From positions 1 to 20,461 of IMG/VR virus record IMGVR_UViG_3300021432_000041: a DNA stretch of 20,461 nucleotides. One strand, given 5' to 3'. Numbering within the stretch: position 1 is the stretch's first letter; each line of letters opens with the position of its first letter. This document shows, in pieces, positions 3,138 to 20,461 of the stretch. This DNA is from a virus. Position numbers and translations under genes: made by a program. A model generated the notes under the pieces. It did not search any database. It was not told where the DNA came from and saw only the letters and a program-made list of their open reading frames with translations.

Positions 3138-3439
3138 ACGGCCACCGGCTGGTCAGTCGAGTAAACGCGCCAAAAGCCATTCGAAAAGTACACCGGGACA
3201 CCCGTTCCGGCCCCTGGTCCCTCGCCCACCTTGCGGCCGTTGGTCGCGAAGGCGATCGAACCTTCCGTGATCGGGGGCCCCATCGGCAAGTTGACCCTCG
3301 TGTAGCTGGTCAGGGTCACGATCTTAAACTCCAGGTTCTGGAGGTACTTCAAAAAGGGCCATGTAATCAGCCGCTTCTCGTCGGTGATCGGGCCCCGGAG
3401 GTAGCCGGAGGGTGAGACGGGTTGTGATAGGCTAGGCAT
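3134..3439 (-). CDS. Small phage tail/structural protein, unknown function
   Basis: This 101-residue protein has no signal peptide or membrane segment. Two parts look familiar from small phage structural proteins: an early ITWPFLKYLQNLE helix (residues about 25-37), and a late Gly-rich segment with GRKVGEGPGAGTGVPVYF (about 69-86) followed by a YFSNGFWRVYS beta hairpin. Together they suggest a helical base with a small beta tip. The ATG lies two nucleotides after the stop of the fibre-like gene and lacks a clear Shine-Dalgarno, so it probably depends on translational coupling. The stop overlaps the next start (ATGA). By position it could attach or cap the tail needle or fibre. I do not recognise a named family. 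Confidence 0.55.
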   Translation of the reverse strand: MPSLSQPVSPSGYLRGPITDEKRLITWPFLKYLQNLEFKIVTLTSYTRVNLPMGPPITEGSIAFATNGRKVGEGPGAGTGVPVYFSNGFWRVYSTDQPVAV

Positions 3440-3441
3440 TG

Positions 3442-7253: not shown

Positions 7254-7257
7254 TTGA

Positions 7258-7680
7258 TTACCACGCCACCTGGGTGCCCGCGATGATCGCGTTGTTTACC
7301 GCGAAGGTCTCGTCCGTGTTGCGAAGCCCCTTCAGGGAGGTCAGCAGGGTGGTTAAGTTAGCCCCGGAAAGAACTCCCGACGGGCCATTCGTCGACGCCC
7401 AGGCCCCGGTCGTCAGGTTGACAGAGACGGTGACCGGAGTTGCGCTCGTGACCGTGCCGGGCACGAGGGTGACGCCCGAGACGGTGCCCTGCTTGAACGT
7501 GACCACCATGATCGGCTGCGCCGCCTGAAAGTCGATGGCAATGGACATCACGGCCGCAGCGGCGTCGTTCTCGATGGTTGAGCCTCCCTGGCTAACGGTG
7601 GTGGTGTTGGTCAACGTGATCGAGGCGTAAGCAACTGCCGCCAGTAGTGCAACTGTTAAAAGGGGAGCGAACTTTCTCAT
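7258..7680 (-). CDS. Small exported protein, unknown function
   Basis: This 140-residue protein starts with a textbook Sec signal peptide (MRKFAPLLTVALLAAVAYA, cleavage predicted after residue 19). The mature part is rich in Thr, Val, Ala and Ser, has no cysteines, and looks like a small beta domain (TLTNTTTVSQGG, then PIMVVTFKQGTVSGVTLVPG), ending in a helical LTTLLTSLKGLRNTDETF segment. The start has a good AAGGAAGG about 7 nt upstream. It lies between an exported fibre-like gene and the gp10-like gene, with gaps of 12 and 4 nt, so it is in the same transcript. I do not recognise the family. By position it could pair with the exported fibre encoded just before it. Confidence 0.6.
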   Translation of the reverse strand: MRKFAPLLTVALLAAVAYASITLTNTTTVSQGGSTIENDAAAAVMSIAIDFQAAQPIMVVTFKQGTVSGVTLVPGTVTSATPVTVSVNLTTGAWASTNGPSGVLSGANLTTLLTSLKGLRNTDETFAVNNAIIAGTQVAW

Positions 7681-7692
7681 GGCAAACCTTCC

Positions 7693-9576
7693 TTAGTTGA
7701 TAATGTGGTAACTGAAGCAGTCCGGATTCGTCACCGGAGCGGTCAGCGCGAACGAAAAGCTGGTGCCCGCGACCACCGCCGTGATCGCGTTCGCGTTCAC
7801 GGTCGAGGGCGTTACGTTGCAGGTCACGCCCAAGCGCGTGCCGGTCGTCGTGTCCTCCCGCTGGGAGATGAAGATCTCGCTGTTCGCCGTCACCCCCGTG
7901 GTGTTGACCGTGCAGGTGGTGGCACCCGTGGCGCAGGAGACCGAACCGGCGGTCGCCGACGTACAGGAGGCCACAGAGGGGTTCGCCGCCGTGCCGACCG
8001 CCGCGCAGTTGACCACCGTCGCGTAGTTGGAAGCCGAGAACGTGCCGCCCGCCGTACCGTCCGCCAGTTGGGCCGTGATCGTGGTGCCGCTGAACCCGAA
8101 CGCGGGGAAGGTGCTGGTGATACCGCCAAAGTCAAGGCGAGTGAAGCTGGTGGAAGCTTGATTAGTAAGATTAATCACTCCGTCAACAGGGCTTGTTATC
8201 CTGCTTCGACCAGTCCAGAGAAAGGTGTTAGACGCGCCTATGTTCAACGCGTTGTTGTTTACAACGAATCCGGACACGGTCCCGTTTACATGCAGATCAA
8301 TAAAGTTTCCAACAAAACCAGACGGAGCATTAACGCCAATGAAGGTGCCGGATGTGCTCCAGGTGGTGGGCGCGGTAGCCCCGGTGGTGTTCTGGTAGAA
8401 CAGCGGGAACGTCGTGGTCCCCGTGCCCCCGGTAAACGGCGCCCCGCTCACGGTCACGGCCGACGAAGAGGCCACCGGGGCGTAAGAGAACGTGCTGGGG
8501 CCCGTGGCCAGTGCCCCGCCGTTGACGCCTACACTAAACACCGTGGCATTATTCACCTGCAAGTTCTCGAGCAGCGAGGCCGCCGCCGAGCTGGTGTTCG
8601 TCACGTTGAAAAAGATCCCTTGCCCCGTCAAACCAGCGTTGTTCCAGGTGGTTTCAATTTGTATCGCGGGGAAGGCCACCGTGCCGGTGACGCTGCCCTG
8701 TTGAATCTCCAGGGGTGTTTCGGTGGACCCGGCTAGCGTACTAATGGAATTAAGCGCCTGGTTCGCCAGGCCGTTGGTCAAAGTGCCCCCGGTGGCGGCG
8801 GCGCTCTCACCAAAGGCCAACCCATCCTGCGCGTCGGTCGTCTGTGCCCAGTTCCAGGTGATCGGGAAGTTCAGGTTGTTGATCGTGGCCGTGCCGTTCG
8901 CCGACGAGACCCCGTTCAGCGGGACCGAGGTGGCCGCGATGGTGCCGGTGCCGGTGGCCGAGATCGACGTCCCGCTAGGTACTGTCAAGGTACCAGGAAG
9001 GACGATCGTGCTCGACAGGGAGAGCACCGGGGCCGTGCCCCCCGTCGAGTTGATCTGGTTGGCCGTCCCCGAGACGCTGGTCACACAGGTCGGGCAGGCG
9101 ATGTTAGGTGCGGTCCCCCCTGAGGACGTGATCGGGCTGGAGGCCGTCACGGCGGTCACCGTGCCCCCGCCGCCCGCCCCGGCGAAGAAGCCGGCGTTCA
9201 CCGCGTTCGACCCCTGCAGGTAGACGACCACGGTGCCCGAGCTGAGCGTAGTGGCGCAGACCTGGAAGGTCGACATCGCCGCCACCTGCGCCGAGTAGAT
9301 GCCGTTCGCGGTGATGGTGGCCTGTGAGGTATTAGAACCTACCGGGAAGACCACCGTGTTGACCGGCGGGTTCGGGTAGATCGTCACCTGCGGCGTCAGG
9401 GTCCCCGTCCAGGTGCCCGTGACCGAGATCGAGATGGTAGCGTCCTGCCCCACTGAGATTTGGGCGCAGCTAGCCCCGTTAGTGCCCGCCACCGAAATGT
9501 AAAACGGGCCCTGGGCTTGCGCCCGGGCTAAGTGGCTCGCCATAAGTAGCAAGAGAGCCAGGATTAACTTTCGCAC
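7693..9576 (-). CDS. Exported tail-fibre-like protein
   Basis: I place the start at a GTG at 9576, because AAAGGAGG ends 6 nt upstream and the product then begins with a Sec signal (MRKLILALLLLMASHLA, cleavage near ARAQA). An upstream in-frame start would add 13 polar residues and ignore the ribosome site. The 627-residue product has a beta-rich N-terminal domain, a Gly linker (about 133-139) and two copies of an S-S/T-GGTAP motif 26 residues apart (151-159 and 177-185), a repeat I know from environmental phage fibres. A region near 409-476 (IDLHVNG, ITSPVDGVINLTNQA) is typical of fibre shafts. The C-terminus is rich in cysteine, with ten Cys in the mature protein in total, including a CPTC. 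The gene follows the homing endonuclease gene by a few nucleotides. Role: receptor binding or a secreted appendage, not resolvable from sequence. Confidence 0.65.
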   Translation of the reverse strand: MRKLILALLLLMASHLARAQAQGPFYISVAGTNGASCAQISVGQDATISISVTGTWTGTLTPQVTIYPNPPVNTVVFPVGSNTSQATITANGIYSAQVAAMSTFQVCATTLSSGTVVVYLQGSNAVNAGFFAGAGGGGTVTAVTASSPITSSGGTAPNIACPTCVTSVSGTANQINSTGGTAPVLSLSSTIVLPGTLTVPSGTSISATGTGTIAATSVPLNGVSSANGTATINNLNFPITWNWAQTTDAQDGLAFGESAAATGGTLTNGLANQALNSISTLAGSTETPLEIQQGSVTGTVAFPAIQIETTWNNAGLTGQGIFFNVTNTSSAAASLLENLQVNNATVFSVGVNGGALATGPSTFSYAPVASSSAVTVSGAPFTGGTGTTTFPLFYQNTTGATAPTTWSTSGTFIGVNAPSGFVGNFIDLHVNGTVSGFVVNNNALNIGASNTFLWTGRSRITSPVDGVINLTNQASTSFTRLDFGGITSTFPAFGFSGTTITAQLADGTAGGTFSASNYATVVNCAAVGTAANPSVASCTSATAGSVSCATGATTCTVNTTGVTANSEIFISQREDTTTGTRLGVTCNVTPSTVNANAITAVVAGTSFSFALTAPVTNPDCFSYHIIN

Positions 9577-9589
9577 ATCGTGCCTCCTT

Positions 9590-10381
9590 TCAATTTGTCC
9601 CCCAGCGTGATTCATACCACGCTGCCTTACCTTCTTCGGTTGAAAAACGTTTCAAGGCCGCTGCGGCCTGGTTTTCCCGCCGCTCGGCCGAATGCTTCCT
9701 GCCGAGGAGCGCGATGCGGATCTTCTCCTTTACCTCCGGAGAGCGAGGGCCGCGCTTCGCGCCGAGATTATGTTTGTTGCCTTTTGAGGCAGCACCGATC
9801 TTTGCCTTAGCTTCCTCAGTGTGATGACGTCCAGTCAGCTTTTCACTAAGAACTTTCTTGGTCTCTTCGGACATAGGCTTGCGCTCACGGGCAGCTGAAG
9901 CGAGACCTACCTTTCGCTTAGCCTCATCTGAAAGCTTTCGACCAATAGAAGTAGCACGAATTTTCTCGCAAGTTTCAGCGCTACGTTCTTGGCCGGTGTT
10001 ACTTTCACTGATCTTTCTCTTCACCTCTTCGGGGTGACGGAAACCGGGTTTACGTCGAGCCAGAATATCTAAGCCTCCAGTGTTTCCGTTAAAACCAAAA
10101 CCATAATAGGTCCCAAACTGTTTAATGTGAAACTTCTCCTTTTGATTAAGGTCATTTCGATCCGTGGCCTCATCAATCACTTCCACCGTGAAATGCTCTC
10201 GACCAAATGCTTGGACTGCACACCAAAGTTTCCTGCCATGGCGTACATCATGGCAATGCTGCTCCCAACGGCCGTTGACTGTTTGTTTTTTGCCATGAAC
10301 CTGGCCCACGTAGCATGGTTTCCCGTCCAGGCGTACCAGGTAAATAAAGAGCTTTCCGAATTGTTGTTTTTTGTCGTCCAT
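9590..10381 (-). CDS. Free-standing GIY-YIG homing endonuclease with NUMOD3-type repeats
   Basis: This 263-residue protein begins with a GIY-YIG nuclease domain. The two signature strands are IYLV (residues 13-16) and YVGQV (24-28). Arg38 and His42 lie in VNGRWEQHC, Glu82 in LNQKEKFH matches the metal-binding glutamate, and asparagines lie near 98-100. Residues about 108-250 are a string of NUMOD3-like DNA-binding repeats of the form G-x-x-x-S/T-x-E-x-x-x-K-x-x. The gene is an obvious insert: one 60-nt line inside it (10081-10140) is 35% GC and the region upstream is 22%, while neighbours reach 65-75%. It separates the gp4-like gene from the exported fibre gene. No interrupted exon is visible on either side, so it looks free-standing rather than intron-borne. 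Its target is probably nearby. Confidence 0.9.
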   Translation of the reverse strand: MDDKKQQFGKLFIYLVRLDGKPCYVGQVHGKKQTVNGRWEQHCHDVRHGRKLWCAVQAFGREHFTVEVIDEATDRNDLNQKEKFHIKQFGTYYGFGFNGNTGGLDILARRKPGFRHPEEVKRKISESNTGQERSAETCEKIRATSIGRKLSDEAKRKVGLASAARERKPMSEETKKVLSEKLTGRHHTEEAKAKIGAASKGNKHNLGAKRGPRSPEVKEKIRIALLGRKHSAERRENQAAAALKRFSTEEGKAAWYESRWGTN

Positions 10382-10388
10382 GCTCTTT

Positions 10389-10416
10389 ATTATACCATAA
10401 CTAATACTTATGGAAA
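10389..10416 (-). promoter_or_regulatory. Extended -10 promoter for the homing endonuclease gene
   Basis: A perfect TATAAT lies at 10389-10394 (minus strand), preceded by TGG, giving an extended -10. A TTTCCA at 10411-10416 (4 of 6 match to TTGACA) is 16 nt upstream. Transcription would start almost at the ATG at 10381, so the message may be leaderless or nearly so; no strong Shine-Dalgarno is present. The surrounding DNA is very AT-rich, so a chance match is possible. Confidence 0.55.
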
Positions 10417-10422
10417 TTAGTT
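10399..10422. repeat. 7-bp inverted repeat overlapping the endonuclease promoter
   Basis: AACTAAT at 10399-10405 pairs perfectly with ATTAGTT at 10416-10422 across a 10-nt loop. The loop contains most of the predicted -35 box. It could be an operator or a weak hairpin in read-through RNA from the gp4-like gene. There is no T-run that would make it a convincing terminator. Confidence 0.4.
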
Positions 10423-10439
10423 TAATTTTGCTTTACTAA

Positions 10440-11201
10440 TTATCCGCGGAACGACCGTCCATACCCATCAGTTATCCAGTTGTACACCTGCTGCCTTGGA
10501 CTTACCAAAGCCGGGTCACACCTCAAATCCAGGTTCGGCGCGTTGATGGCCTCGATCTTCGCCTTCGACGAGGTCGCGACCGCCGCCACCTCCGGCGGCA
10601 CCTGCGTCCCGAACTCGGGCGCCAGGTCCACCGCTAGGTTGTAACGGATCGCCTTAAAGTAGCCCGGTGGGAACTCAAGGTCAGTCGCTAGGTCCGGGAA
10701 CGACATCAGGGCCGTCCAGCTGTAGACCGCGATCGACACCGGGAGCCCGCCGTCCGGCACGCACCAGAACGTAAAGGTTCTCAATGGGAACCCGAGGTCG
10801 TCCCACACCTTCAGGGGCAGGCTCGACGTGATGTCCTTCACGGGGATCGCCGCGTACTGGTCGGTCGTCAAATATTCAAGTGGCAGTTCCAGCGGTTGAA
10901 TCGGGTTGGCTTTGCTGATGATGCCGATCCGGTCGATGTACGCGGGCCGCGGCACGTTGAAGAAGCCCCCGGGCCCGTAGGTGTAGGCCTTCTGCCCGGG
11001 CACCAGGTTGAAGAAGTTCCCGAGCGCGTCCTGCACCACGCGCTGCACGGTGAACACCGTCAGGCGGTCGGCTGACCACTCCTCCATCATGAGGTTCAGG
11101 GTGGCAAGCGCGTCCTGGCTCTCGGCGGCGGTCGGGACCTCGCCCGAGGCCAGCACGTTGATCAGCCTGAGGGCCGAGTTGATGACGTCGTTCCCGGTCA
11201 C
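10440..11201 (-). CDS. Head-to-tail adaptor, P22 gp4-like tail accessory factor
   Basis: This 253-residue protein has the N-terminal helical pattern of P22 gp4-type adaptors (NDVINSALRLINVLASGE, then ALATLNLMMEEWSAD), followed by a segment typical of the family (FNLVPGQKAYTYGPGG) and PRPAYIDRIGI. In P22, twelve gp4 subunits bind below the portal and provide the platform for gp10. The position after the coat gene and upstream of gp10 matches P22 order, apart from inserted genes. P22 gp4 has 166 residues, so this is one of the longer members, with an added C-terminal half (FPPGYFKAIRYNLAVDLAPEFG) common in relatives outside the enterobacteria. The GTG start overlaps the upstream stop as GTGA, indicating coupling. 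Confidence 0.82.
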   Translation of the reverse strand: MTGNDVINSALRLINVLASGEVPTAAESQDALATLNLMMEEWSADRLTVFTVQRVVQDALGNFFNLVPGQKAYTYGPGGFFNVPRPAYIDRIGIISKANPIQPLELPLEYLTTDQYAAIPVKDITSSLPLKVWDDLGFPLRTFTFWCVPDGGLPVSIAVYSWTALMSFPDLATDLEFPPGYFKAIRYNLAVDLAPEFGTQVPPEVAAVATSSKAKIEAINAPNLDLRCDPALVSPRQQVYNWITDGYGRSFRG

Positions 11202-11410
11202 TTGCTAGCCTTGCGAAGCTTCTTGAAGGCCGCGACGTCGAAGTCCTTGTTGAACTTCAAATCGTCCTCGTCGCTGGCCAGGGGCGGGATGACCGCCGGG
11301 CTTTCCGGGAACTCCGGCGCCAGCGGCTTGCGCGGCACGTAGGTCCCGTTCACAAAGTCGTGCGGGCCCATCAGGATCTTCCGCATCTCTTGGGGGTTCT
11401 CGATGATCAC
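11198..11410 (-). CDS. Small protein with GPHDFVNGTY motif, unknown function
   Basis: This 70-residue protein starts at a GTG that overlaps the previous stop as GTGA, with AGGAGG inside the preceding coding sequence about 5 nt upstream. The N-terminal half carries LMGPHDFVNGTYVPRKPL (residues about 14-31), which closely matches LAGPHEYVNGSYR in the tiny gene just upstream, so the two appear to be paralogues. The C-terminal half is charged (DEDDLKFNKDFDVAAFKKLRK), with an amphipathic helix near the end. No signal peptide or membrane segment. Function unknown; position suggests a connector or head-completion accessory. Confidence 0.5.
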   Translation of the reverse strand: MIIENPQEMRKILMGPHDFVNGTYVPRKPLAPEFPESPAVIPPLASDEDDLKFNKDFDVAAFKKLRKASK

Positions 11411-11541
11411 AGTTCCTCCTCGGCCTTTTCGACCTCGGCCTCTACCTCGGTCTTGACCTCCTCGACCTTCCGCTCAACGGCCCGGTAGCTGCCGTTGACG
11501 TACTCGTGGGGCCCGGCTAGAACGTCCTTCAAGTCCACCAT
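11407..11541 (-). CDS. Very small protein with GPHEYVNGSY motif and acidic coiled tail, unknown function
   Basis: This 44-residue reading frame begins at an ATG at 11541 preceded by AAGGAGG with ideal spacing; the longer in-frame extension would cross the terminator hairpin and part of the previous gene, so I reject it. The N-terminus (VLAGPHEYVNGSYR) matches the motif of the next gene. The rest is a Glu/Lys/Val heptad-like helix (VEEVKTEVEAEVEKAEEEL). The stop overlaps the next GTG start. It is the first gene after the terminator-like hairpin, so its expression depends on read-through. Confidence 0.55.
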   Translation of the reverse strand: MVDLKDVLAGPHEYVNGSYRAVERKVEEVKTEVEAEVEKAEEEL

Positions 11542-11555
11542 AATTTCCTCCTTAT

Positions 11556-11596
11556 AAAAGTCAGGACGGGGAGGGCCAGGTTCGACCCTCCCGTCC
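11556..11596 (-). terminator. Strong hairpin terminator behind the coat-protein unit
   Basis: GGACGGGAGGG on the minus strand (11586-11596) pairs with CCCTCCCCGTCC (11564-11575), an 11-bp stem with one bulged base and a 10-nt loop, followed by TGAC and a T4 run at 11556-11559. It lies between the stop at 11610 and the ribosome site of the next gene. The short T-run suggests partial termination, which would lower expression of connector and tail genes relative to coat. Confidence 0.65.
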
Positions 11597-11609
11597 AAAT
11601 CTGTAAACC

Positions 11610-12419
11610 TCAATATGAGGCCACAAATTTTAACTGCGTAGCGTCCCAAGTCTCGCAAAGCACCTGCCCAACCACCGCCGTCGAGGCCTTGGCGATGTTG
11701 TTCGTCGCCGTGGTCGTGAAAGCGCCGGTTGGGATCATGCAAAACTGCCCGCCGCCTACTGCCGTGGCGTTGAAGCCGACCGGGATGCCGAACGCGGTGA
11801 TCGCGGTCGTGCCGGAGACTTCAAACAATGGCCCTGACGGGGTTAACGTGGCCGCCGAGGCAACCGCGGTCGTGAGGCGTGAGGTGTCCACAGCCCACGG
11901 GTTCGAGAAGTACGACGTCCAGGTGGAGGTCACCGTGGAGCACACCCACTGCATGGACGTAAGTACGTTGACCCAAGGGGTCGCTAGCACCGCCGAGCAC
12001 GCCCCGTTGAAGGGCGGATCATTGGCCTGGAAGCCCCCGGAGCCCGAGAAGCCCCCGAACTGCGGGGAGACGATCTCGGCGAGCACCATGTCACCCGAAG
12101 CATGCGAATGCTCCTTCGTGCCGAGCTGTCCCCTCAACACGTTGAAGATCGTTGTCTGCCCCGGCACCACCGACAGGATGCCCTCGGCCTCCTGGTCGAT
12201 GTAGATGTAGGTGACTGGCTGCCCGTTGCTAGCCACTTGGATGCCGGTCGCCGAGGCGAGCGACACCGTAGTGTCCGTGTTCTGGGTGACGCCCGCGCCG
12301 GAGGCAAGCTGCGCCGTGGCGAGGGTCGTCTGGGTGAGCGGGGTGCCGACCTGGGCGAAGCCCAGGCTTGCTACGAGCACCAGCCCAAGGACCGCTGCGA
12401 TTTTGTTGATTTTGGTCAT
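11610..12419 (-). CDS. Exported protein encoded directly behind the coat gene, unknown function
   Basis: I place the start at the ATG at 12419, which gives a clean Sec signal peptide (MTKINKIAAVLGLVLVASL, cleavage after GFA at residue 21) with AGGA upstream; a GTG 10 codons earlier has no ribosome site and would spoil the n-region. The 269-residue product continues with a Thr/Ala/Ser-rich beta segment, then YIYIDQEAEGILSVVPGQTT and VLRGQLGTKEHSHASGD, a RGxxGTxxxxHxxG motif that I know from phage baseplate and fibre-like proteins. The C-terminal half has four cysteines and a beta-rich end. It lies 35 nt behind the coat stop and before a terminator, so it should be expressed as strongly as coat. 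A decoration role would conflict with export; that tension is unresolved. Confidence 0.65.
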   Translation of the reverse strand: MTKINKIAAVLGLVLVASLGFAQVGTPLTQTTLATAQLASGAGVTQNTDTTVSLASATGIQVASNGQPVTYIYIDQEAEGILSVVPGQTTIFNVLRGQLGTKEHSHASGDMVLAEIVSPQFGGFSGSGGFQANDPPFNGACSAVLATPWVNVLTSMQWVCSTVTSTWTSYFSNPWAVDTSRLTTAVASAATLTPSGPLFEVSGTTAITAFGIPVGFNATAVGGGQFCMIPTGAFTTTATNNIAKASTAVVGQVLCETWDATQLKFVASY

Positions 12420-12454
12420 GGTAGTTGTCCTTTTAACCTGAATTTTCACTCAGA

Positions 12455-13672
12455 TTAGCTGGCGACTCTCACCGCCAATTCCGGATAGAGTGTGGTCCAC
12501 CCGTACAGGATGTCCAGCCTGCAGGGGAAACGATCCGTGTTTATATCATAAGCTCGCACGAGCCTGATACTCATCCCGAGCTGCTTGTCAGCCACGCGCG
12601 CGGCCATGTCGACGCCGCCCGGGAGGGGCAGGTCGGCTGACGCGAACGCGAAGGCGTCTTTGTGGAACGCCAGGCCGCGGGGGGTTGGCCCGGTGCCTGA
12701 GGCGCCGCTGATGGTGATCACCGCCGCGGCCGCTGGGGAGTTCGTGACGGTCTGGAATGGCCCAGCCGTGATGATTCCCAGGCCGCCGGGGCCCGCGATT
12801 GGGAGCGTTGCCAGGCCGCCGGCCGAGACCACGTTGGCCGTGATCACGAACTGGCGGAGGGCGCCGGTCGACTGGTGGTTCTGCGGGTTAACGGCGAATA
12901 CGCCCGCGAAGGTGACGATGTCACCGCGGTTGAGCACCTGCCCAGCCGCCCAGCCGGAGGTTAGGATCGAGTTGCCGGTCTGGCCCGCGACCGTGACGAT
13001 CGGGGTCGAGCCGGCGTACGCGCCCACTTGCTGGGTGCGCACGTTCTGATCCATGCTCCACTTGAAGCCGATGGTCAGGCCCATGGTGCCCTTCTCGTAC
13101 TGCTCGGCGATGTCCTGTGAGCTCTGGAAGAGGCCCTTCAAGGCGTCGACGATCGTGGCCTGCATGGCGGGTGAGATAACGAGCGCTCGCGCGTTGTCGC
13201 GCGGGGCCGCCTCTTCGTCCAGCCGCTGGCCAGCCTGCAGGTAGGTCAGCAACGCGTTTGGCACCGTGCCAGGGGTACCGATCTCGTTGTACACGTTGAG
13301 GTACTGCCCGAGGCCGTCGAAGTCGATGAAGTTGGCGACGTTCGCGATGGCCGGCTTTACGAACCGGTCGCTGAAGTCATCAATCGACAACGCCAAGTCT
13401 TGGCTAGTGAACGCGATGTCAACGCCGCGCTGCGTGTTGAGGGTCAACGGGACTGAAGTCTCGGTCGCGTCCTCGATCTGCAGGCCTTGTCCAACGCGGC
13501 CTACGTATCGAGGTGGCTTCCTGATATTCAGTACCGTGCCGATTTTCGCTCCGGCTCTCCCGTAGGAGTCATCGAAGTCGCGGCGGACGTACTTGGTGAA
13601 CGTAAGGTTGTTCTCCAAGATACGGAGCGCCTCTCGGGTGATCATGCTGATGGTTAACAGTGTGTTAGCCAA
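12455..13672 (-). CDS. Major capsid (coat) protein, P22 gp5-like
   Basis: This 405-residue protein resembles P22-type coat proteins: an N-terminal MITREALRILENNLTF arm, the KPPRYVGRVGQGLQ region, VPLTLNTQRGVDIAFTSQDL, and a central segment with LNRGDIVTFAGVFAVNPQNH and QSTGALRQFVIT (about residues 235-275), which matches the region of P22 coat that holds the inserted I-domain. It ends with GMSIRLVRAYDINTDRFPCR plus LDILYGWTTLYPELAVR. P22 coat has 430 residues, so the length fits. The start is a TTG at 13672 with AAGGAG about 7 nt upstream. The gene follows the scaffold after a 151-nt leader and is followed by an exported protein. P22 coat is a known GroEL/ES substrate, which links it to the GroES gene in this window. 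Confidence 0.88.
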   Translation of the reverse strand: MANTLLTISMITREALRILENNLTFTKYVRRDFDDSYGRAGAKIGTVLNIRKPPRYVGRVGQGLQIEDATETSVPLTLNTQRGVDIAFTSQDLALSIDDFSDRFVKPAIANVANFIDFDGLGQYLNVYNEIGTPGTVPNALLTYLQAGQRLDEEAAPRDNARALVISPAMQATIVDALKGLFQSSQDIAEQYEKGTMGLTIGFKWSMDQNVRTQQVGAYAGSTPIVTVAGQTGNSILTSGWAAGQVLNRGDIVTFAGVFAVNPQNHQSTGALRQFVITANVVSAGGLATLPIAGPGGLGIITAGPFQTVTNSPAAAAVITISGASGTGPTPRGLAFHKDAFAFASADLPLPGGVDMAARVADKQLGMSIRLVRAYDINTDRFPCRLDILYGWTTLYPELAVRVAS

Positions 13673-13823
13673 TTGAAGCTCCTTCCAAGTCGAAAAAAGT
13701 CTTGCTTGCTACCGTTTCCGAGTCGGTTAGAAGTTCTGGCTAGTTCGCCACCAGCCTACGGAAGACCACCGCTTGTAAACCAAGGCGCTTGAGCCGCGCC
13801 TAGAAGGCTTTTACTAAAGTCTA
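13673..13823 (-). promoter_or_regulatory. Coat-gene leader with small hairpins
   Basis: This 151-nt gap is the longest non-coding stretch here. Bases 13783-13788 and 13796-13801 form a 6-bp GC-rich stem with a 7-nt loop, and an AAGGAG ribosome site lies at its downstream end. I see no convincing -35/-10 pair, and the T6 run near the coat start has no hairpin directly before it. It may stabilise the coat message or hold a promoter I cannot recognise. Confidence 0.3.
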
Positions 13824-14744
13824 TTATCGCCTAAACCTCGCGCGCTCCTGCTCGGCCCGCACGCGCCGATAGGTCTGATAGTCAACGTCGTCCAACGGTA
13901 TCGAGCTGCGCGTCGGGGAGCTACCGACTGGCTTGATCGGCCGTGGGGCCCGCGACACCGGGGCCTTGACCACGCGTTCCTCGACCGGCTGTGAGAGCTG
14001 CCGAACCCAGCCGCCGAACTCCACGAGGGCCGCGGCGTCGCCTTCCTGCCGCATGATCTCGACCAGCTGGTCGCAAAAGTCGGGGTCCTGGGCGATGCGG
14101 TACGCGACCTCCGGCCCCTGGTCCCGCATCTGGATGATCGCTATCTGCACGGACTTGGGGATCTGGGGCCCGTTCTTGATGACCTCGTCGAAGTCCTCGT
14201 ACTCGGCCCGTGCCTCGGACACCGCGTGGTTGTAGCTTTGGAAGGTCTCCTGCTGCCGCTGTTGCAGCTGGACCTGTTGCTGCTCAGCCTGTTTGGCCGC
14301 CCACTTTTCTTCAGCCTTCCAGTCGGCCAGGGCCTCGACATACTCATCGTAGGTCTTGAACGCGTCGGCCGTGGGCTTTGGCTTGCCGGTCACGGACTGG
14401 ACCTCAGCGTGCACTACGGCCGGCGGCTTGCCGGCTTGTGCCCGCTCAACGGCCTCAAGGCGCTTCTGCAGCTCGGCGTTCGTCTCCTCGAGCTCATAGT
14501 TGCGCGCGGTCAGCTTGTCAAAGCGCCGTTGCACTTTCGACTTTGGGGGCCGCGGGGCCTCCTCTTCGACCTCTTCCTTAGCCTCGACCTTCTCCTCAGG
14601 TTGCTCCTCGGTTTTTTCCTCAGCTTGAGGCGCCTTCGCCTCGACCTCCTCGGTTACGACCTCGGTTTCTCCCGCGTCAACCCCGGCCGCGTGCTGCACG
14701 TCCTCGAGGTCGTCGGTGGTGCTTGACACAATCACGTCCGCCAT
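13824..14744 (-). CDS. Scaffolding protein (P22 gp8-like position)
   Basis: This 306-residue protein is very acidic in its first 65 residues (Glu/Ala/Val/Lys repeats). It then has a basic PKSKVQRRFDKLTARNYELE stretch leading into a coiled coil (residues about 70-105, ELEETNAELQKRLEAVE), a Gln-rich helical centre (about 155-180) and a C-terminal basic end (VRAEQERARFRR). Length and composition match P22-type scaffolding proteins (303 residues in P22), whose basic C-terminal helix-turn-helix binds coat. It lies between portal and coat, as in P22. The ATG has AGGAG 7 nt upstream. No protease site or fusion is evident. Confidence 0.8.
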   Translation of the reverse strand: MADVIVSSTTDDLEDVQHAAGVDAGETEVVTEEVEAKAPQAEEKTEEQPEEKVEAKEEVEEEAPRPPKSKVQRRFDKLTARNYELEETNAELQKRLEAVERAQAGKPPAVVHAEVQSVTGKPKPTADAFKTYDEYVEALADWKAEEKWAAKQAEQQQVQLQQRQQETFQSYNHAVSEARAEYEDFDEVIKNGPQIPKSVQIAIIQMRDQGPEVAYRIAQDPDFCDQLVEIMRQEGDAAALVEFGGWVRQLSQPVEERVVKAPVSRAPRPIKPVGSSPTRSSIPLDDVDYQTYRRVRAEQERARFRR

Positions 14745-14856
14745 AGGGTTCTCCTAAGTTCTCTGCTCGGCCTTTACCCGCCGTGGGGAATTAAACTTTG
14801 AGCGTGACCAGGCATGCGCTCCCCGCCCTAAACGCCCCGTAGTCAGGGCAACTTGG

Positions 14857-15102
14857 TTACCGGTGCTCCGGGGGCACGTTCGCCGGAGTGTGGTGCGTGT
14901 CGTTCGAAACGTCGCCCGGGTTATCCGGCATGTCTTGATACAGCTGCGATGGCCTGGCTAACTCGGCCATGCCCGCCTGCTCGCGGGGAGAGCTAGAGTC
15001 CCGCGGTCCCTGGTTGAACTCCGTGTTGTTTCCGCAATCGTTGATGTCCGCCGTCCGCTCCCGGTACAGCGCGTCCTGCGCCTTCTCAGAATGCCGTGCC
15101 AT
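14857..15102 (-). CDS. Small hydrophilic protein, unknown function
   Basis: This 81-residue protein is hydrophilic and rich in Asp, Asn, Pro, Ser and His, with probable disorder throughout (for example NDTHHTPANVPPEHR at the end). There is no signal peptide, membrane segment or recognisable domain. The ATG at 15102 has AGGAGG 5 nt upstream, made partly from the stop codon of the preceding small gene. A 112-nt gap without visible signals separates it from the scaffold gene. By position, between portal and scaffold, it may be a head-assembly accessory. Confidence 0.5.
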   Translation of the reverse strand: MARHSEKAQDALYRERTADINDCGNNTEFNQGPRDSSSPREQAGMAELARPSQLYQDMPDNPGDVSNDTHHTPANVPPEHR

Positions 15103-15110
15103 AAACCCTC

Positions 15111-15281
15111 CTAGATTTTGTCGAACTGGCTCCCGGGCGCTGGCAGCTGGTCCGGTGCCTGGACGTTCGGTTGGATTTTAGGCATCGCCGGCGCCGGGGG
15201 CATCGTGCCTTGCCGCTCGGGGTGGTTGCCGTATGCCTTGTCGATCTGGTGCGTATGCCTCGGTGACTCGTGGCCCTTCAT
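15111..15281 (-). CDS. 56-residue Pro/His/Gln-rich protein, unknown function
   Basis: This short frame starts with an ATG that overlaps the portal stop as ATGA and has AGGAGG 6-7 nt upstream, so translation is well supported. The protein is Pro-, His-, Gln- and Met-rich (HTHQIDKAYGNHPERQ, then PPAPAMPKIQPNVQAPDQ) and probably disordered. Its end (PGSQFDKI) places the stop TAG inside the ribosome site of the next gene. Function unknown. Confidence 0.55.
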   Translation of the reverse strand: MKGHESPRHTHQIDKAYGNHPERQGTMPPAPAMPKIQPNVQAPDQLPAPGSQFDKI

Positions 15282-17422
15282 TGTGCCCCTCCTGGTTGCG
15301 CTGCCCCGTTGGTAGGCGGGGGCGCCGTTGCCTGCATCGCCTGCTCATGTGCCGCTGAGTGCAGCTCTACCCAAATGTCGTGAAACATTTGCGCTCGTTC
15401 ACTAGCATTTTGCGCCTTCGTGTTGATTTCGGCGATGGCGACCTGCGCGTCGATCTTCATCTTCTCGATGTCTGCCCGGCCCTTGGTCTCAACCTGCTTG
15501 GTCTGGATCGTCAAGTTTGCCTGTTGCAGCGCCTGCACGAGCTGGTCATGCTGCTGACCTAGCTGCTGGAGCTTGGCGTGGGCAGCCGTAAGCTGCGCCT
15601 CGGGCGACTGGTCGTTCTGGTCTAGTACCTCGGGTGGTAGGGTCCGCTTAAGCCGCTTCGAGATCTCCTGCGCGTACGGCCAGTCCATGTTCGCGACCAA
15701 GAGGTCACCGGCCATCTGCATCAGCTGCGGGTAGGCCTGAACTAAGCTCATGATCGAGGCCACGGCCTCCTGCCGCTTCGACTGGTAGTTTGGCCCCTGC
15801 GACACGACCACGTCGTAGGTGCCCACGCCCACGTCGTGCAGCTCGGTGACTGCGGGCTTCTGCTTCGCGAGCAGGATCTGCGCCTCTTCCGGCGAGTACT
15901 CCTGCTGGCTGTTGAACACGCCCACGTACTTTACGCTCTGGTCCGGGTTTACGATCCGCTGGATGCGCGGCGTGTCGTACACGTAAGGGATCCAATTCAC
16001 CAAGATCCGGCCGGTGTGCCGGATGGACCTCGCTAGGTTGTCAGAGAAGTTTAAGGTGGCGAGGTCCCCCTGCTTCTGACGCGCTAGGATCGCGCGACCG
16101 CTCTGGTCGGGGCCCGCCTGCCCGAGACTGGCATCGTAAATGCCTAGGCTGGCCTTGATGTCGTTGCCCGCCTGCCGAATCATGAGGCTCATGGCCTGGA
16201 TCGGGGGCTCGGTCTGCACGCGCTCGGGAGCCCCAGCCGGAGTTCCATTGATTGAAACCGGGTCGTACTCGATGTACGGGAAGTTCCGCTGGTTCATCTG
16301 CTTCCACTGGGTCTCGCTCGACTTAAACTGCCCCTTGACGCCTACAAATGGGGCCTTGGGGGCGAGCGCGATCGTCTCGGTGGCTGCACTGTTCCAGTAG
16401 TTGTACATCCGCTGGGGATCCTTCGCGTTGCGCGTCAGGCCCGCCAGGTACCGCTTGCCGTCGATGTCCAGGTCGGTGCCAAGCACCGGGACCACCGGGA
16501 TGTACTTCCCCGGCAGCTCGCGCTGGTCTAGCACCTCGACGCCGTTGATCTTCTCCCAGATGACCTTGCGGTCCACTACCTCGCGGTGGTCCACGACGAC
16601 GTCATCCTGTTCAAGGTCTTCCTCGTCCTTGACGGTGCCGTCCTCGAGGCGCACGATGTCGCGGGTGCTCTCCTCAATGTAGAAGTACTCAGCTACCCGG
16701 ATAGTCTCCTTCGTGGCCCAGGTGGCGGCGTTGTCGCCGATCGAGGAGTAGTCCGGCAGGCCTAAAGCGGTCGAGTCGCCGTAGAGCAGCTTGTACTCAC
16801 TCCTGGGCACGTCCTCGATGATGAACTTAAAGCGCGCGTCCGACTGGTCGGGCAGCATGGCCGCGGGGTCGCAGTAGACGGTGAAGGGGTTCTTAATGAG
16901 GTCGATCTTGAGCTCTTGGTCGAACGTGTCGCCCGGCAGGTACTCGGTGCTGACCCGCCAATAGCCAAAGCCGAACCGCACCATGTGCTCGAAGGCGGTG
17001 TCGTAGGCGATCTCGGCCTCCGAGTTAACCTCGATGTGCCGGACCATCCCCTGCAGGGCCTCGGCGACCTCCCGGGTGGCGCCGTCGCCCACCGGGTTGA
17101 TCTGCACGGAGGGCCTTTGCTGTCGCTGCTCGTTGCAAACTTGCTTGATGCTCTGGTTAAGCTGGTCCATCGTGAGGCAAGGACGGCCATCGGCAACGCG
17201 CTGTGCCTCGATGTCCGCGGGCCACTGCTCGCCGATCGAGAACTTGAGGTCGTCGAGGGCGTCGCGCCGGGCGCGGGCCTCGGCCTCGTCGCAGAGGCGA
17301 AAGCGCTGCTGCGCCTGCGCCAGGTGCTGCCGCAGCTCCTCCTTCTTGCGGAGCCGGTCGGCGTCCTCGGTGGATACCGCGGTCTTTACCTCGCTGACGT
17401 CGATCTGGGGGTCAGTGGCCAT
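15278..17422 (-). CDS. Portal protein, P22 gp1-like
   Basis: This 714-residue protein is close in length to P22 portal (725). Family-typical parts include an N-terminal helical arm, DDLKFSIGEQWPADIEAQR (about 57-75), RPCLTMDQLNQSIKQVCNEQ (84-103), the wing and core with FGYWRVSTEYLPGDTFDQEL, and IKNPFTVYCDPAAMLPDQSD (about 176-195). A further conserved zone is DASLGQAGPDQSGRAILARQ near 430-450. The last 120 residues are a Gln/Ala/Lys-rich helix (QLTAAHAKLQQLGQQHDQL), matching the portal barrel, and a Pro/Gly-rich tail. The ATG at 17422 overlaps the GroES stop as TGATG. The portal forms the dodecameric DNA gate at one vertex and binds the gp4-like adaptor. The neighbouring GroES gene is an unusual companion. 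Confidence 0.87.
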   Translation of the reverse strand: MATDPQIDVSEVKTAVSTEDADRLRKKEELRQHLAQAQQRFRLCDEAEARARRDALDDLKFSIGEQWPADIEAQRVADGRPCLTMDQLNQSIKQVCNEQRQQRPSVQINPVGDGATREVAEALQGMVRHIEVNSEAEIAYDTAFEHMVRFGFGYWRVSTEYLPGDTFDQELKIDLIKNPFTVYCDPAAMLPDQSDARFKFIIEDVPRSEYKLLYGDSTALGLPDYSSIGDNAATWATKETIRVAEYFYIEESTRDIVRLEDGTVKDEEDLEQDDVVVDHREVVDRKVIWEKINGVEVLDQRELPGKYIPVVPVLGTDLDIDGKRYLAGLTRNAKDPQRMYNYWNSAATETIALAPKAPFVGVKGQFKSSETQWKQMNQRNFPYIEYDPVSINGTPAGAPERVQTEPPIQAMSLMIRQAGNDIKASLGIYDASLGQAGPDQSGRAILARQKQGDLATLNFSDNLARSIRHTGRILVNWIPYVYDTPRIQRIVNPDQSVKYVGVFNSQQEYSPEEAQILLAKQKPAVTELHDVGVGTYDVVVSQGPNYQSKRQEAVASIMSLVQAYPQLMQMAGDLLVANMDWPYAQEISKRLKRTLPPEVLDQNDQSPEAQLTAAHAKLQQLGQQHDQLVQALQQANLTIQTKQVETKGRADIEKMKIDAQVAIAEINTKAQNASERAQMFHDIWVELHSAAHEQAMQATAPPPTNGAAQPGGAQ

Positions 17423-17715
17423 CAGTTAACTTTTCCATCCTGCTGTACGATCACACCGATATCGGCTTCCTGAATCAGGAACTCGTCGCCCTTTTTCCAG
17501 TCGGGGCGCGAAGCCGCGATCCCAGGGAGCATGACCACGTCCCCCGGCTTTACCTGCAGGGGGATGCGGTGACCGGACTTAGTTCGGCGCCCTGGACCCA
17601 CCGCTAAGACCTCAGCGAAGGTCGACGCCCCACGGTCCGTTAAAATGATGCAACTGCTATAAGGCTCTTCGAGCTGTCGCACCAAGAGGCGGTCGTCAAG
17701 CGGTTGGACCCTCAC
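17422..17715 (-). CDS. groES: Phage-encoded GroES-type co-chaperonin
   Basis: This 97-residue protein matches GroES in length and along its whole course: MRVQPLDDRLLVRQLEEP corresponds to the conserved N-terminal strand, SSCIILTDRGASTFAEVLAV corresponds to the mobile loop with its hydrophobic tripeptide and to GEVLAVG, then VKPGDVVMLPG and EFLIQEADIGVIVQ match the core and C-terminal strand. The mobile loop is a few residues shorter than in E. coli GroES and has CIIL in place of GIVL. It starts at a GTG overlapping the previous stop as GTGA, with GGAGG 6 nt upstream. No GroEL gene is in the window, so it would act with the host GroEL, like T4 gp31. Its place next to portal and upstream of coat suggests help in folding capsid subunits. 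Confidence 0.85.
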   Translation of the reverse strand: MRVQPLDDRLLVRQLEEPYSSCIILTDRGASTFAEVLAVGPGRRTKSGHRIPLQVKPGDVVMLPGIAASRPDWKKGDEFLIQEADIGVIVQQDGKVN

Positions 17716-17936
17716 TCGGCCCTCCGCAGGGAGCTAGTCTTAACGAGTCCGGGATAAAGCTTGTGAGCCTTGGCCCGGACTCGGGCCTCGACCGGTTTGC
17801 CAGAGGCACGGGCCATCGCGTTGACAGCGTGCGAGCGGTCCGGCATCGGGTATGAGCCCCCACCCGGCGCCTTTGCGGGGACGCCAAACTTGGACTTTGA
17901 GATGTGCTTTCGGGCGTTAGTCGTCAGCTTTGCCAA
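17712..17936 (-). CDS. Small basic phage protein with YPMPDRSHAVNAMARAS motif (DUF6582-like)
   Basis: I choose a TTG start at 17936 (product MAKLTTNARKHISKSKFGVP), because GGAGG lies 7 nt upstream; an earlier TTG has no site. The 74-residue product is basic. It carries FGVPAKAPGGGSYPMPDRSH followed by AVNAMARASGKPVEARVRAK and HKLYP, a pattern I associate with small phage proteins of the DUF6582 type, whose function is unknown. Its 5' end overlaps the preceding small gene by 20 nt and its stop overlaps the GroES start. Frame assignment is firm, the family name less so. Confidence 0.55.
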   Translation of the reverse strand: MAKLTTNARKHISKSKFGVPAKAPGGGSYPMPDRSHAVNAMARASGKPVEARVRAKAHKLYPGLVKTSSLRRAE

Positions 17937-18096
17937 TTTTATCCTCCGCAATCAACGTGATCTCCTCGTTGATAAAGCTTCTCATGAACTCGTAGAACAC
18001 GATCGCGCTTTCCTTGTCCGGGAACTGGATCGTAACCTCGTTGACCTCGTTCGGCTCAAAGAAGTTAGTGCCTGGCGGGAAGATGGTCAAGTCCAT
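17917..18096 (-). CDS. 59-residue acidic protein, unknown function
   Basis: This short frame runs from an ATG at 18096, one nucleotide behind the upstream stop, to a TAA at 17917 inside the next gene. The product begins MDLTIFPPGTNFFEPNE and continues with VTIQFPDKESAIVFYEFMRS and a helical INEEITLIAED end. It looks like a small alpha/beta domain with no signal peptide. The purine-rich GGCGGGCGGG before the start may serve as a weak ribosome site. The tight packing and in-frame codon use support a real gene. Function unknown. Confidence 0.5.
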   Translation of the reverse strand: MDLTIFPPGTNFFEPNEVNEVTIQFPDKESAIVFYEFMRSFINEEITLIAEDKIGKADD

Positions 18097-18097
18097 C

Positions 18098-18289
18098 TCA
18101 GCCCGCCCGCCTTAACGAGGCCGTCGAGGTGGTGCCCTCCGGGTACCGACCGCCGTGCGCCTTTTCCTTGCGGCGCTCGCTCATCATGATAGCGATGGCT
18201 TGCTGGCGGTTCTTCACCTTGGGGCCTTTGGGGCCTCCGGAGCGAAGCACACCACGCTTGAACTTTCCCATCACAGCCGATGACGGCAT
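18098..18289 (-). CDS. Small basic protein, DUF6496-like
   Basis: From the ATG at 18289 the product has 63 residues. The core GKFKRGVLRSG followed by KVKNRQQAIAIMMSERRK (about residues 8-42) is the pattern I know from DUF6496-type small phage and bacterial proteins of unknown role. The C-terminus ends SLRRAG, much like SLRRAE in a nearby gene; in both, the Arg codons form the ribosome site for the next gene. The start codon is uncertain: an ATG six codons further in (18271) is possible, and neither has a strong Shine-Dalgarno. The upstream stop lies 4 nt away. Confidence 0.6.
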   Translation of the reverse strand: MPSSAVMGKFKRGVLRSGGPKGPKVKNRQQAIAIMMSERRKEKAHGGRYPEGTTSTASLRRAG

Positions 18290-18293
18290 AGGC

Positions 18294-18461
18294 TTATACT
18301 TTCTTTTGTATATCGCTCGCAAGCTTGGTTGCCTGCAGGGCAAGCTCGTAGCCCTTCTTCAGGTCGGCGAGCATCTTCTGTTCCATCCGGCGCCCGTACA
18401 TGGCGCCCGCGACGAAGCTGGCGACGGCGGTGACGAGAACAGCTATGGCGAGGGCGTGCAT
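18294..18461 (-). CDS. 55-residue single-span membrane protein
   Basis: The ATG at 18461 overlaps the previous stop as TAATG and has GAGGAC upstream. The product has a hydrophobic N-terminal segment (LAIAVLVTAVASFVAGAMY, residues 4-22) without a signal peptidase site, then RR and an amphipathic Lys/Leu-rich helix (MLADLKKGYELALQATKLAS). This is the layout of a small membrane-anchored protein with a cytoplasmic or periplasmic helical tail. Holin- or spanin-like roles cannot be excluded, but the gene sits in a head cluster rather than with lysis genes. Function unknown. Confidence 0.55.
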   Translation of the reverse strand: MHALAIAVLVTAVASFVAGAMYGRRMEQKMLADLKKGYELALQATKLASDIQKKV

Positions 18462-18832
18462 TAGTCCTCGCCCCGCTCTTCTGACCTGGTCGACTTGTAG
18501 TGCTTGTACTTCGGTTCCTTGTCGGCCTCTTCGTGGTCCGGCTTGCCGCCCGGTTCCTCGGTGTCGAACTCCTCGTCCATGCCCTGGAGGTGCGAGATCA
18601 TCTCATTCTCCTTTACGCCCAGGTGGTCCATCAGGTGGTGGACGGTCTCGGGGCCCTCGCCGAAGGCATAGACGTCCGGCTGGTGGAAGGCGGTGTCCGA
18701 CGGGTGGTAGTGGTGGGTGACGGTGTGCCCCTCGTTCTTGGCAGGGCGCACCTCGATGTGGGACAGCTTCTTCTTGCCGCCCCTGCTTGTGCTGCGCACC
18801 TCGTGGTAGGTGTCGACCTTATGCTTTGCCAT
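18461..18832 (-). CDS. His-rich small phage protein, unknown function
   Basis: I place the start at the ATG at 18832 because it overlaps the upstream stop as TAATG and is preceded by a GGAGAGGG run; an earlier in-frame start overlaps the neighbour without support. The 123-residue product begins with a basic segment, then LSHIEVRPAKNEGHTVTHHY and a His-rich part (HHYHPSDTAFHQPD), followed by EGPETVHHLMDHLGVKENE. This is a pattern I loosely associate with recurrent small proteins in phage head clusters. The C-terminal 40 residues are strongly charged (Glu, Asp, Lys) and likely disordered. The histidines could bind metal, but no fixed site is evident. Confidence 0.55.
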   Translation of the reverse strand: MAKHKVDTYHEVRSTSRGGKKKLSHIEVRPAKNEGHTVTHHYHPSDTAFHQPDVYAFGEGPETVHHLMDHLGVKENEMISHLQGMDEEFDTEEPGGKPDHEEADKEPKYKHYKSTRSEERGED

Positions 18833-19029
18833 TATTCCCTCTCCTCTTCCTTCTTGGGTGAAAAGATCACGCACCAGCCCTCGGGGTAGATCGGGCCCTT
18901 GACGTGGGTGCAGGCCGGGGCCTTACCCTCGACGTACATCCAGCAGTCGTCGCAGTCGTCCGGCTGGTGCCGGCTCTTCTTCTCGTAACGAACCGAGGCC
19001 TGCTCGCGCTTGTAGATCAACTCGTGCAC
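18832..19029 (-). CDS. Four-cysteine HiPIP-like (iron-sulfur or zinc) small protein
   Basis: This 65-residue protein starts at a GTG with AAGGAGG 5 nt upstream. Its cysteines lie at 26, 29, 40 and 53 in the order C-x2-C-x10-C-x12-C, and the last lies in PEGWCVIF. The C-x2-C start and GWC end resemble high-potential iron-sulfur proteins, although the second spacing is shorter than the usual 14-16 residues. Unlike true HiPIPs there is no Tat or Sec signal, so a cytoplasmic metal site, possibly zinc, is as likely. The N-terminus is basic and the C-terminus is KKEEERE. It lies in a run of small head-region genes. Confidence 0.6.
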   Translation of the reverse strand: MHELIYKREQASVRYEKKSRHQPDDCDDCWMYVEGKAPACTHVKGPIYPEGWCVIFSPKKEEERE

Positions 19030-19039
19030 AAACGCCTCC

Positions 19040-19528
19040 TTAGGTCAGGGTCACGTTGTTCTGAGCTTCGACGTACCAGATGCCTTGGAAGGCGACGAGC
19101 CGCAGGTAGGCGCCGGCGAAGGCCGCGAAGGTGGCGGTCGTCACGGAGGACGAGCCGTTGCGGAAATTGCCCGCCGGAATCGTGGTGAACACGTGCGCAA
19201 AGGCCGTCAGCGACAGGAACGAGATGATCTTCCCGTCGTCTGGGCTGCCTAGGCCCGAGGCGGTCGCCGGCGAGGGGGCCGCGATGGTGTCAGTGAGAAC
19301 CCCGGCCTTCGTGATGACGAAGAGCTGCGGCAGGATGGGGCCACTGGCCCCCATGATCGCCGAGGGGCTGAGCGGCACGGCGCCGTTCACCAGCAACTGC
19401 ACGGGAAACTGGTTGTTTAGGTTAACGTCCAGGAGGGCCGACTGGTCGTAGGCCCCTTGGTGGGAGTTCGGGGGCATGTAGCCCCTGAGCAAGTCACGGA
19501 TAATTCGGCGAAGCTTGAGGTCAGTCAT
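19040..19528 (-). CDS. Putative capsid decoration or head structural protein
   Basis: I take the ATG at 19528, with AGGAG 10 nt upstream, rather than a start 11 codons earlier that would fall inside the predicted promoter. The 162-residue product has a basic N-terminal helix (LKLRRIIRDLLRGYMPPN), then a beta-rich domain: a GKIISFLSLTAFAHVFTTIP stretch, FRNGSSSVTTATFAAFAGAY, and a GIWYVEAQNNVTL end. This beta signature (TAxxH, NG, TATFxAxxG, G-x-W-Y-V) is one I associate with small phage head-decoration or tail-tip domains. It is the first gene after the promoter and so probably abundant. No signal peptide. Exact family not identified. Confidence 0.55.
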   Translation of the reverse strand: MTDLKLRRIIRDLLRGYMPPNSHQGAYDQSALLDVNLNNQFPVQLLVNGAVPLSPSAIMGASGPILPQLFVITKAGVLTDTIAAPSPATASGLGSPDDGKIISFLSLTAFAHVFTTIPAGNFRNGSSSVTTATFAAFAGAYLRLVAFQGIWYVEAQNNVTLT

Positions 19529-19552
19529 CGGGGGAGAGCTCCTAAACTTAGA

Positions 19553-19582
19553 ATTGTACACCTAACTTTGGTAACCTGTAAA
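19553..19582 (-). promoter_or_regulatory. Sigma70-like promoter for the head-gene operon
   Basis: TTTACA at 19577-19582 (5 of 6) and TACAAT at 19553-19558 (5 of 6) on the minus strand are 18 nt apart. Start of transcription would be near 19546, only about 18 nt before the ATG at 19528, with the ribosome site AGGAG at 19539-19543 in between. It lies in one of the few real intergenic gaps, which supports it. Confidence 0.6.
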
Positions 19583-19601
19583 CGCCTAGCTTTCGCAAAT
19601 G

Positions 19602-19630
19602 GGAAACTATTCTTATAGGAAAGTTTTCCT
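19602..19630. repeat. Inverted repeat at the end of the protease gene
   Basis: GGAAACT at 19602-19608 pairs with AGTTTTCC at 19622-19629 with one bulge and a 13-nt loop. A second, mutually exclusive palindrome covers 19617-19630. It overlaps the protease stop and precedes the promoter. It might be a weak terminator insulating the two units, but it is AT-rich and has no T-run. Confidence 0.35.
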
Positions 19631-20387
19631 AGTCCTGGTCCTCGGCCTTCCAGTACTTATAGGTTTTAGAATCAACCTCCTGCCGGAACTTCACGAGCCG
19701 CGAGGCCGGGATGGCCACGATCTGCGTGTCATCGATAATGCCCACGAGGAAGGCGCAGATGGCCCGCTGCTCCAAGCACACGACCGCCGACCCGGAGCTG
19801 CCCCCGTCCGTGCCCGGCAGCTGCAAGAGCACGGTGTGCTGCCAGTTGATGTCGTTCACCCGCACGTCCCGGTCCAGGTCCGGGCTTGAGACCGTGCCCC
19901 TGAACACTTGCTTGCCGAGGCCTAAGGGCGACGCCACGTTGGCGATGGCCTCGCCCGAGTACCGCACGGGGTCCTTGCCCACCGGCATCACCGGGATCTG
20001 GGCCTGGGAGTCTACCTGGAAGAGGCAGAAGTCGTCGCCCGCGTGCTGGTAGCCGCAAGCCAAAAGTTTAGCCTTGACGAAGGTCTTGTCCTTGCGCTCA
20101 TCGAAGGTGACGAAGAAGAACTTCTTGACGTCGGCCTGCACGCGCTTCTTCTCGACGTCGTCCTCCGAGGCACAGTGCGCGGCCGTCACGAAGACGTAGC
20201 CAGCAGGGTTCTTCTCGATGGCCGTGGCCGTGCAGTGCATCTTCATCGAACCCGTCTCGTCCTGGCTGTAGAGCAAGACGACTGCTGGGTAGACCTGATT
20301 AGTGATGAAGGCGGAGTCAGAGACCGCCTGGGAGTATGCCCAAGGCGACAAAAGTATACTTAGCAGCAGTGTAATTATAGTCCTCAT
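19629..20387 (-). CDS. Secreted trypsin/V8-like serine protease
   Basis: I choose the ATG at 20387 because it overlaps the upstream stop as ATGA; a GTG three codons earlier is possible. The 252-residue product has a Sec signal peptide (MRTIITLLLSILLSPWAYS, cleavage near SQA). The catalytic triad is visible: His71 in VTAAHC, Asp119 in GDDFCLFQV, and Ser198 in GTDGGSSGSAVV. The GSSGSA form resembles glutamyl endopeptidase/V8 and HtrA-type proteases rather than GDSGG trypsins. Six cysteines include one just before and one just after the active-site His (CTATA and AAHC), as in a classical disulfide. Being exported, it is not a usual cytoplasmic prohead protease. It may process or mature the other exported proteins of this cluster, or degrade surface proteins; both are inference. 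Confidence 0.82.
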   Translation of the reverse strand: MRTIITLLLSILLSPWAYSQAVSDSAFITNQVYPAVVLLYSQDETGSMKMHCTATAIEKNPAGYVFVTAAHCASEDDVEKKRVQADVKKFFFVTFDERKDKTFVKAKLLACGYQHAGDDFCLFQVDSQAQIPVMPVGKDPVRYSGEAIANVASPLGLGKQVFRGTVSSPDLDRDVRVNDINWQHTVLLQLPGTDGGSSGSAVVCLEQRAICAFLVGIIDDTQIVAIPASRLVKFRQEVDSKTYKYWKAEDQD

Positions 20388-20461
20388 CCCATCCACCCCT
20401 GGTTGGTCTGCCCCGCGTACCGGTATTCGGTCACCACCTTGTTCACCGGCATCTTCGAGCT
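20384..20461 (-). CDS. C-terminal end of an unidentified gene (partial)
   Basis: The last 25 codons of a frame entering from the right edge end in a TGA that overlaps the protease start as ATGA. The visible residues include VNKVVTEYRYAGQTNQGWMG. This is too short to identify. In a P22-like order a terminase gene would be expected further upstream, but nothing here proves it. Confidence 0.45.
   Translation of the reverse strand, partial: SSKMPVNKVVTEYRYAGQTNQGWMG

Follow-up and report, generated by a model that had tools for sequence, protein, structure and literature searches.

A predicted exported, PDZ-less HtrA-fold serine protease encoded between the terminase and portal genes of a podovirus-like phage

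We analyzed an IMG/VR record of 20,461 bp from a podovirus-like phage, and the whole of this stretch is referred to below as the window. The gene under study (19629–20387, minus strand) encodes a serine protease of 252 aa with an HtrA/trypsin fold and no PDZ domain, which is predicted to be exported; the assignment is based on the Pfam family Trypsin_2, family alignments, and a structural model with its fold match. The open reading frame (ORF) was listed as 20396–19629 (minus strand), with 255 codons counting from a GTG at 20396. The ATG at 20387, which gives the 252-aa product, is the likelier start; it is preceded by AGGGG, and it overlaps the TGA of the upstream gene for the terminase large subunit (terL) as ATGA. 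Only the 3′ end of terL lies in the window (20384–20461, minus strand), and the whole gene is found on L001 (6635–8107; phrog_2, E = 3.6e-37), a second contig of the same phage. This contig is 99.98% identical to the window across 9,739 bp, covers both gene junctions, and reaches 8 kb past the window end, so the protease gene is not an artefact of an assembly edge. The gene order on L001 is terL, protease, small genes, GroES-like gene, and portal gene. In the window, the GroES/Cpn10-like gene occupies 17422–17715 (minus strand; Pfam Cpn10, E = 4.4e-13) and has homologues at 13 loci of relatives, and the gene for a P22-type portal protein occupies 15278–17422 (minus strand; PF16510, E = 4.2e-174). 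The coat protein is also of the P22 type (PF11651), and a gene in the scaffold position is present. The first-pass annotation had placed the protease beside the head genes, and its position between terL and portal agrees with this.

Several other genes of this phage were recorded. Upstream of terL, L001 encodes a small cysteine-rich protein of 90 aa (5686–5958) that overlaps the end of a terS-like gene; its start is signal-like with a score of only 2.47, and it could be exported. A GIY-YIG/NUMOD3 homing-endonuclease-like gene lies between tail genes (window 9590–10381, minus strand), and a GNAT acetyltransferase-like gene with homologues at eight loci of relatives lies between the fibre and DNA-ejection genes (2799–3137, minus strand). 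The gene directly after the coat gene (11610–12449, minus strand) has a signal-like start in 11 of 15 homologous loci (L009, L041–L046, L055, L056, L064, and L108, the signal-less loci being L050, L051, L053, and L065), and this virion-region protein appears to have gained or lost an export signal. The only match to the coat in cellular genome contigs, 55% identical, was on an Acidobacteria MAG contig (L126, 1788–2996), which is a weak hint that the host may be acidobacterial.

ORF length by itself is little proof of a gene at the G+C content of the window, where many spurious antisense ORFs were listed. A chance ORF was ruled out by the Trypsin_2 match (E = 1.4e-11; 45.7 bits against a curated cut-off of 27.6) and by six viral homologues that are 44–56% identical to the window protein, and the protease gene is confirmed as real. 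Trypsin_2 also matched all five family members scanned, and sequence searches of NCBIfam and the PDB gave weak matches to HtrA/DegS. The catalytic residues, numbered from the ATG, are His71 in a TAAHC motif (codon 20175–20177), Asp119 in GDDFCLFQVD (20031–20033), and Ser198 in GGSSGSA (19794–19796), all on the minus strand. Each aligns with its HtrA counterpart, falls in the catalytic H, D, or S column of 30 HtrA-type ORFs, and is invariant in the seven members of the family. The serine motif is not GDSGG or GNSGG, and GGSSGS is likewise invariant (7/7). No PDZ domain was found in the Pfam scan of the window protein, and 252 aa leave no room for one. A structural model from the single sequence was unusable (pLDDT 36) and was replaced by one built from a seven-sequence family alignment (pLDDT 79.8, pTM 0.83). 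The best solved matches of this model in Foldseek were HtrA/Deg protease domains (9.5e-12), and VIA-align gave Deg1 (Z 23.1) and HtrA1 (Z 22.9) over approximately 197 residues; the top rows of both searches were HtrA/Deg. Fold, triad, family, and gene position were established by computation, and the protein is a trypsin-type serine protease that is predicted from its triad to be active. The complete His-Asp-Ser triad that had been read from the sequence was borne out, with no triad residue out of order or register.

A Sec signal peptide is predicted for residues 1–19 (20331–20387, minus strand), with cleavage after AYS and a rule-based score of 4.0; it reads MRTIITLLLSILLSPWAYS and is followed by the mature start QAVSDS. 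The score is home-made, and the rule was passed by the starts of all seven family members and by 1 of 928 internal start-like positions in the phage's own proteins, which served as a control. An extra-membrane filter in this rule loses true positives: it missed the proteases of the window, G485, G487, and G489, all of which pass without it. As for the cysteines, C52 and C72 are invariant in the family (7/7), whereas C204 and C211 are both present in five members and both absent in two. Because C111 shows the same split, the mature part holds an even number of cysteines in all seven members. These features, together with the gene position, strongly suggest export and late expression, and the exported serine protease with a signal peptide described in the first-pass annotation is upheld.

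The family was collected from viral contigs by several searches. A DNA pattern for FVTAAHC found 30 stretches, among which blastp identified seven clear relatives besides L198 (the window phage's second contig), and a five-sequence alignment widened the family to 11 IMG/VR contigs; the sole find of a protein-pattern scan was the second contig of the window phage. The scans required an exact FVTAAHC or [PNM]A[VT]..LY[SA]Q, and the family is therefore surely under-counted. By near-identity of contigs, the 11 contigs represent seven distinct phages (window/L001; L209; L210/L211; L212/L213; L214; L215/L216/L218; and L217), which span at least three terminase types. The family profile scored 348–458 bits in the 11 phage records; in 396 Acidobacteriota genomes, its maximum was 41.3 bits, in HtrA-like ORFs of 390–757 aa. 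Distant HtrA-type ORFs occurred in 64 of these 396 genomes at E ≤ 0.01, and the family profile matched 37 at E ≤ 1e-8. No homologue was matched among 50,697 phage records, 72,556 plasmids, or the cellular genome contigs searched. A genome search with PF13365 gave 0 of 39 and missed even the gene of the window, so its zeros were not counted as absence. In PHROG, the window protein matched only phrog_11383 (E = 0.13) and phrog_21147 (E = 0.52); phrog_11383, for which no function is named, matched five of five family members, with a best value of 5.6e-8. As far as searched, with Acidobacteriota as the cellular comparison for the profile, the family appears to be phage-specific.

In five of the seven phages, the protease gene and terL share a strand and are no more than 5 kb apart. 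In L209, terL (phrog_38) is 1.45 kb downstream of the protease gene and is followed by the portal gene. In L210, the protease gene is flanked by two endonuclease-like genes, and an ORF of approximately 1,070 aa bearing a signal is followed by a terL fragment 5.0 kb downstream of the protease. L214 has the order endolysin, weak Rz-like match, GroEL, GroES, protease, terL (2.5 kb downstream), and portal; its GroEL and GroES genes (7644–9565) are immediately upstream of the protease, and the endolysin (phrog_181, E = 1.3e-27) and the Rz-like match are on the strand of the protease gene, approximately 3 kb upstream of it. No lysis genes were identified near the protease in the window phage, L209, L210, or L217, and L214 is the single case. 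In L217, genes for T4-like Hc2 and a tail-sheath stabiliser precede the protease, with terS 73 bp and terL 0.5 kb downstream. The protease gene of L216 is near a DNA ligase gene, with terL approximately 38 kb away and 41% identical to that of L217, and no terL was found in L212. Because the terminases of L209, L210, and L214 are related (31–39% identical), the terminase-side position rests on about three independent lineages. In L004, the slot after terL is held by a different ORF of 145 aa that is HNH-like by eye.

The first-pass annotation had also linked the protease to the processing of the other exported proteins of the phage, and this link failed in both directions of co-occurrence. All nine relatives scanned (G002, G438, G442, G448, G450, G452, G473, G437, and G440) have fibre-like ORFs with a signal-like start and at least 400 aa, and none of their ORFs matched a trypsin/HtrA profile better than E = 0.48; the same profile gave 1.5e-51 for the window gene, which is itself part of the profile. 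By tblastn, the protease was present in 1 of 50 whole records, namely the window phage's own L001. These protease-negative genomes were chosen as coat or terL relatives and are no random sample. Conversely, signal-like ORFs of at least 300 aa were absent in four of the six distinct carriers with more than 20 kb (G482, G485, G487, and G489), absences that are soft because the extra-membrane filter also removes genuine signals; a single signal-like ORF is present in G482 (292 aa) and in G489 (261 aa), with doubtful calls either among these or in addition. The scan left out the last 364 bp of G450, 1,264 of G452, 2,848 of G437, 630 of G440, and 6,512 of G483; G488 was covered from 1 to 20,000 only (its locus is identical to that of G489), G491 was left out, and G490 (5 kb) was left out of the fibre comparison. 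Fibre maturation as the main role was rejected on this failed co-occurrence. That the protease matures the phage's own exported fibre-like proteins or controls their quality is accordingly judged unlikely, even though HtrA enzymes in general act on exported proteins, at least five proteins of the window phage bear signal peptides, and the carriers G483/G484 have exported-looking ORFs of 1067, 768, and 1120 aa. Among these phages, canonical signal peptides, frequently with A as the last residue before a mature Q, are pervasive on large fibre-like ORFs, which occur in nine of nine relatives scanned (window 3442–5448, 7258–7680, and 7693–9615, minus strand; L001, 3468–4637; G473, G452, G440, and others). 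The reason for which tailed phages would export fibre-like proteins may be of greater interest than the protease itself.

Two further readings were considered. A prohead or scaffold protease would suit a gene between terL and portal, but the predicted signal peptide and the HtrA/trypsin fold, in a phage with a P22-type coat, portal, and scaffold-position gene, contradict it, and the protease gene was not detected among the records of relatives whose coats are up to 91% identical, several of these records being fragments; we regard this role as highly improbable, as had been argued from the sequence. The unusual GGSSGS in place of GNSGG might suggest an HtrA relative that is catalytically dead or acts mainly as a chaperone. 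This too seems very unlikely, if slightly less so, since the triad is invariant in seven divergent members and the bacterial S1 ORFs L143 and L154 share GSSGS. A stronger competitor, unlikely in itself but not far behind the best reading, is that the gene is cargo (a moron) whose protease alters the cell surface by removing a receptor or surface protein, blocking superinfection, or countering an envelope-level defence. The patchy spread across unrelated phages, the other gene in the post-terL slot of L004, and a single-domain, PDZ-less enzyme with predicted export are consistent with it, although in five of the seven phages the protease gene sits in the late packaging region and not in an early or lysogeny-expressed locus.

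The reading that we prefer, with a probability of roughly 0.42, is that of a late-made, PDZ-less HtrA-type protease whose target is the host envelope and whose action probably falls around the time of lysis and release. Because the gene is usually beside the terminase or portal gene, the protease would be made while virions assemble. It would be exported late in infection by its own Sec signal, most likely to the periplasm, and would fold there with disulfides. The PDZ domain regulates cellular HtrAs, and since this regulating domain is missing, the enzyme is probably always on. It may then cleave host envelope proteins, either misfolded or surface proteins, and this cleavage could ease lysis and release or keep progeny off debris; both the choice of envelope substrates and the connection with lysis are our inference. 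A bolder and rather doubtful proposal is that a viral periplasmic protease was taken up independently by several unrelated tailed-phage lineages, namely the window family and, at minimum, two further phage proteases that are short, exported, trypsin-like, and encoded close to lysis genes, as an extra release step beside holin, endolysin, and spanin, in which envelope or surface proteolysis frees progeny or prevents them from sticking to debris. The exported proteases of tailed phages are little discussed. If the envelope is attacked at release, the protease would add a testable component to the lysis of environmental hosts that have been little studied, and the family could supply envelope-active proteases.

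In a search of the mostly open-access literature, we found no paper whose subject is an exported, trypsin-like protease encoded by a phage. PMC11924767 contains neither “signal peptide” nor “protease” as words, such a protease is not discussed in PMC4047441, and a word search of PMC10386132 gave none. PMC13236601 describes a CARD-NLR-like system with trypsin-like proteases that are required for lysis, which is a different thing.

Among known systems, the closest are the HtrA/Deg proteases DegP, DegS, and HtrA1, which are members of MEROPS S1C. The window protease has in common with them the S1 fold (Z ~20–23), the triad, a PLGLG...G.VSS segment, and a predicted export signal, but it lacks a PDZ domain, carries GGSSGS where they have GNSGG, is ~15–20% identical to them, and belongs to a family that appears to be phage-specific. 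For comparison with named phages, 3 of 30 records were inspected; the third holds a full-length HtrA on a contig that looks bacterial and was not comparable. The “protease” of Sulfitobacter phage pCB2047-C (YP_007675277.1, 222 aa) is also a short, exported trypsin-like protein with no room for a PDZ domain, but it barely aligns with the window family profile (3.9 bits); its gene follows endolysin, holin, and two small genes. The trypsin-like peptidase of Rhizobium phage RHph_TM3_3_14B (QIG68660.1, 236 aa) is similarly short and scores 1.3 bits; it is encoded 2.5 kb downstream of lysozyme and endopeptidase genes, with the terminase more than 20 kb away. Both proteins have signal-peptide-like starts, and their position near lysis genes would support the lysis link by analogy, not homology. 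The HtrA-like protein of Rhizobium phage AF3 (A0A7G7WW26, 229 aa), a BFVD fold match, has a PDZ-less length and is 16% identical to the window protease. HtrA-fold proteases as a kind are already known, since some phages and giant viruses carry annotated examples. What appears to be new, unmatched in the annotated phage collection searched, is a family that combines the GGSSGS motif, the PDZ-less form, and a repeated place at the side of the terminase gene.
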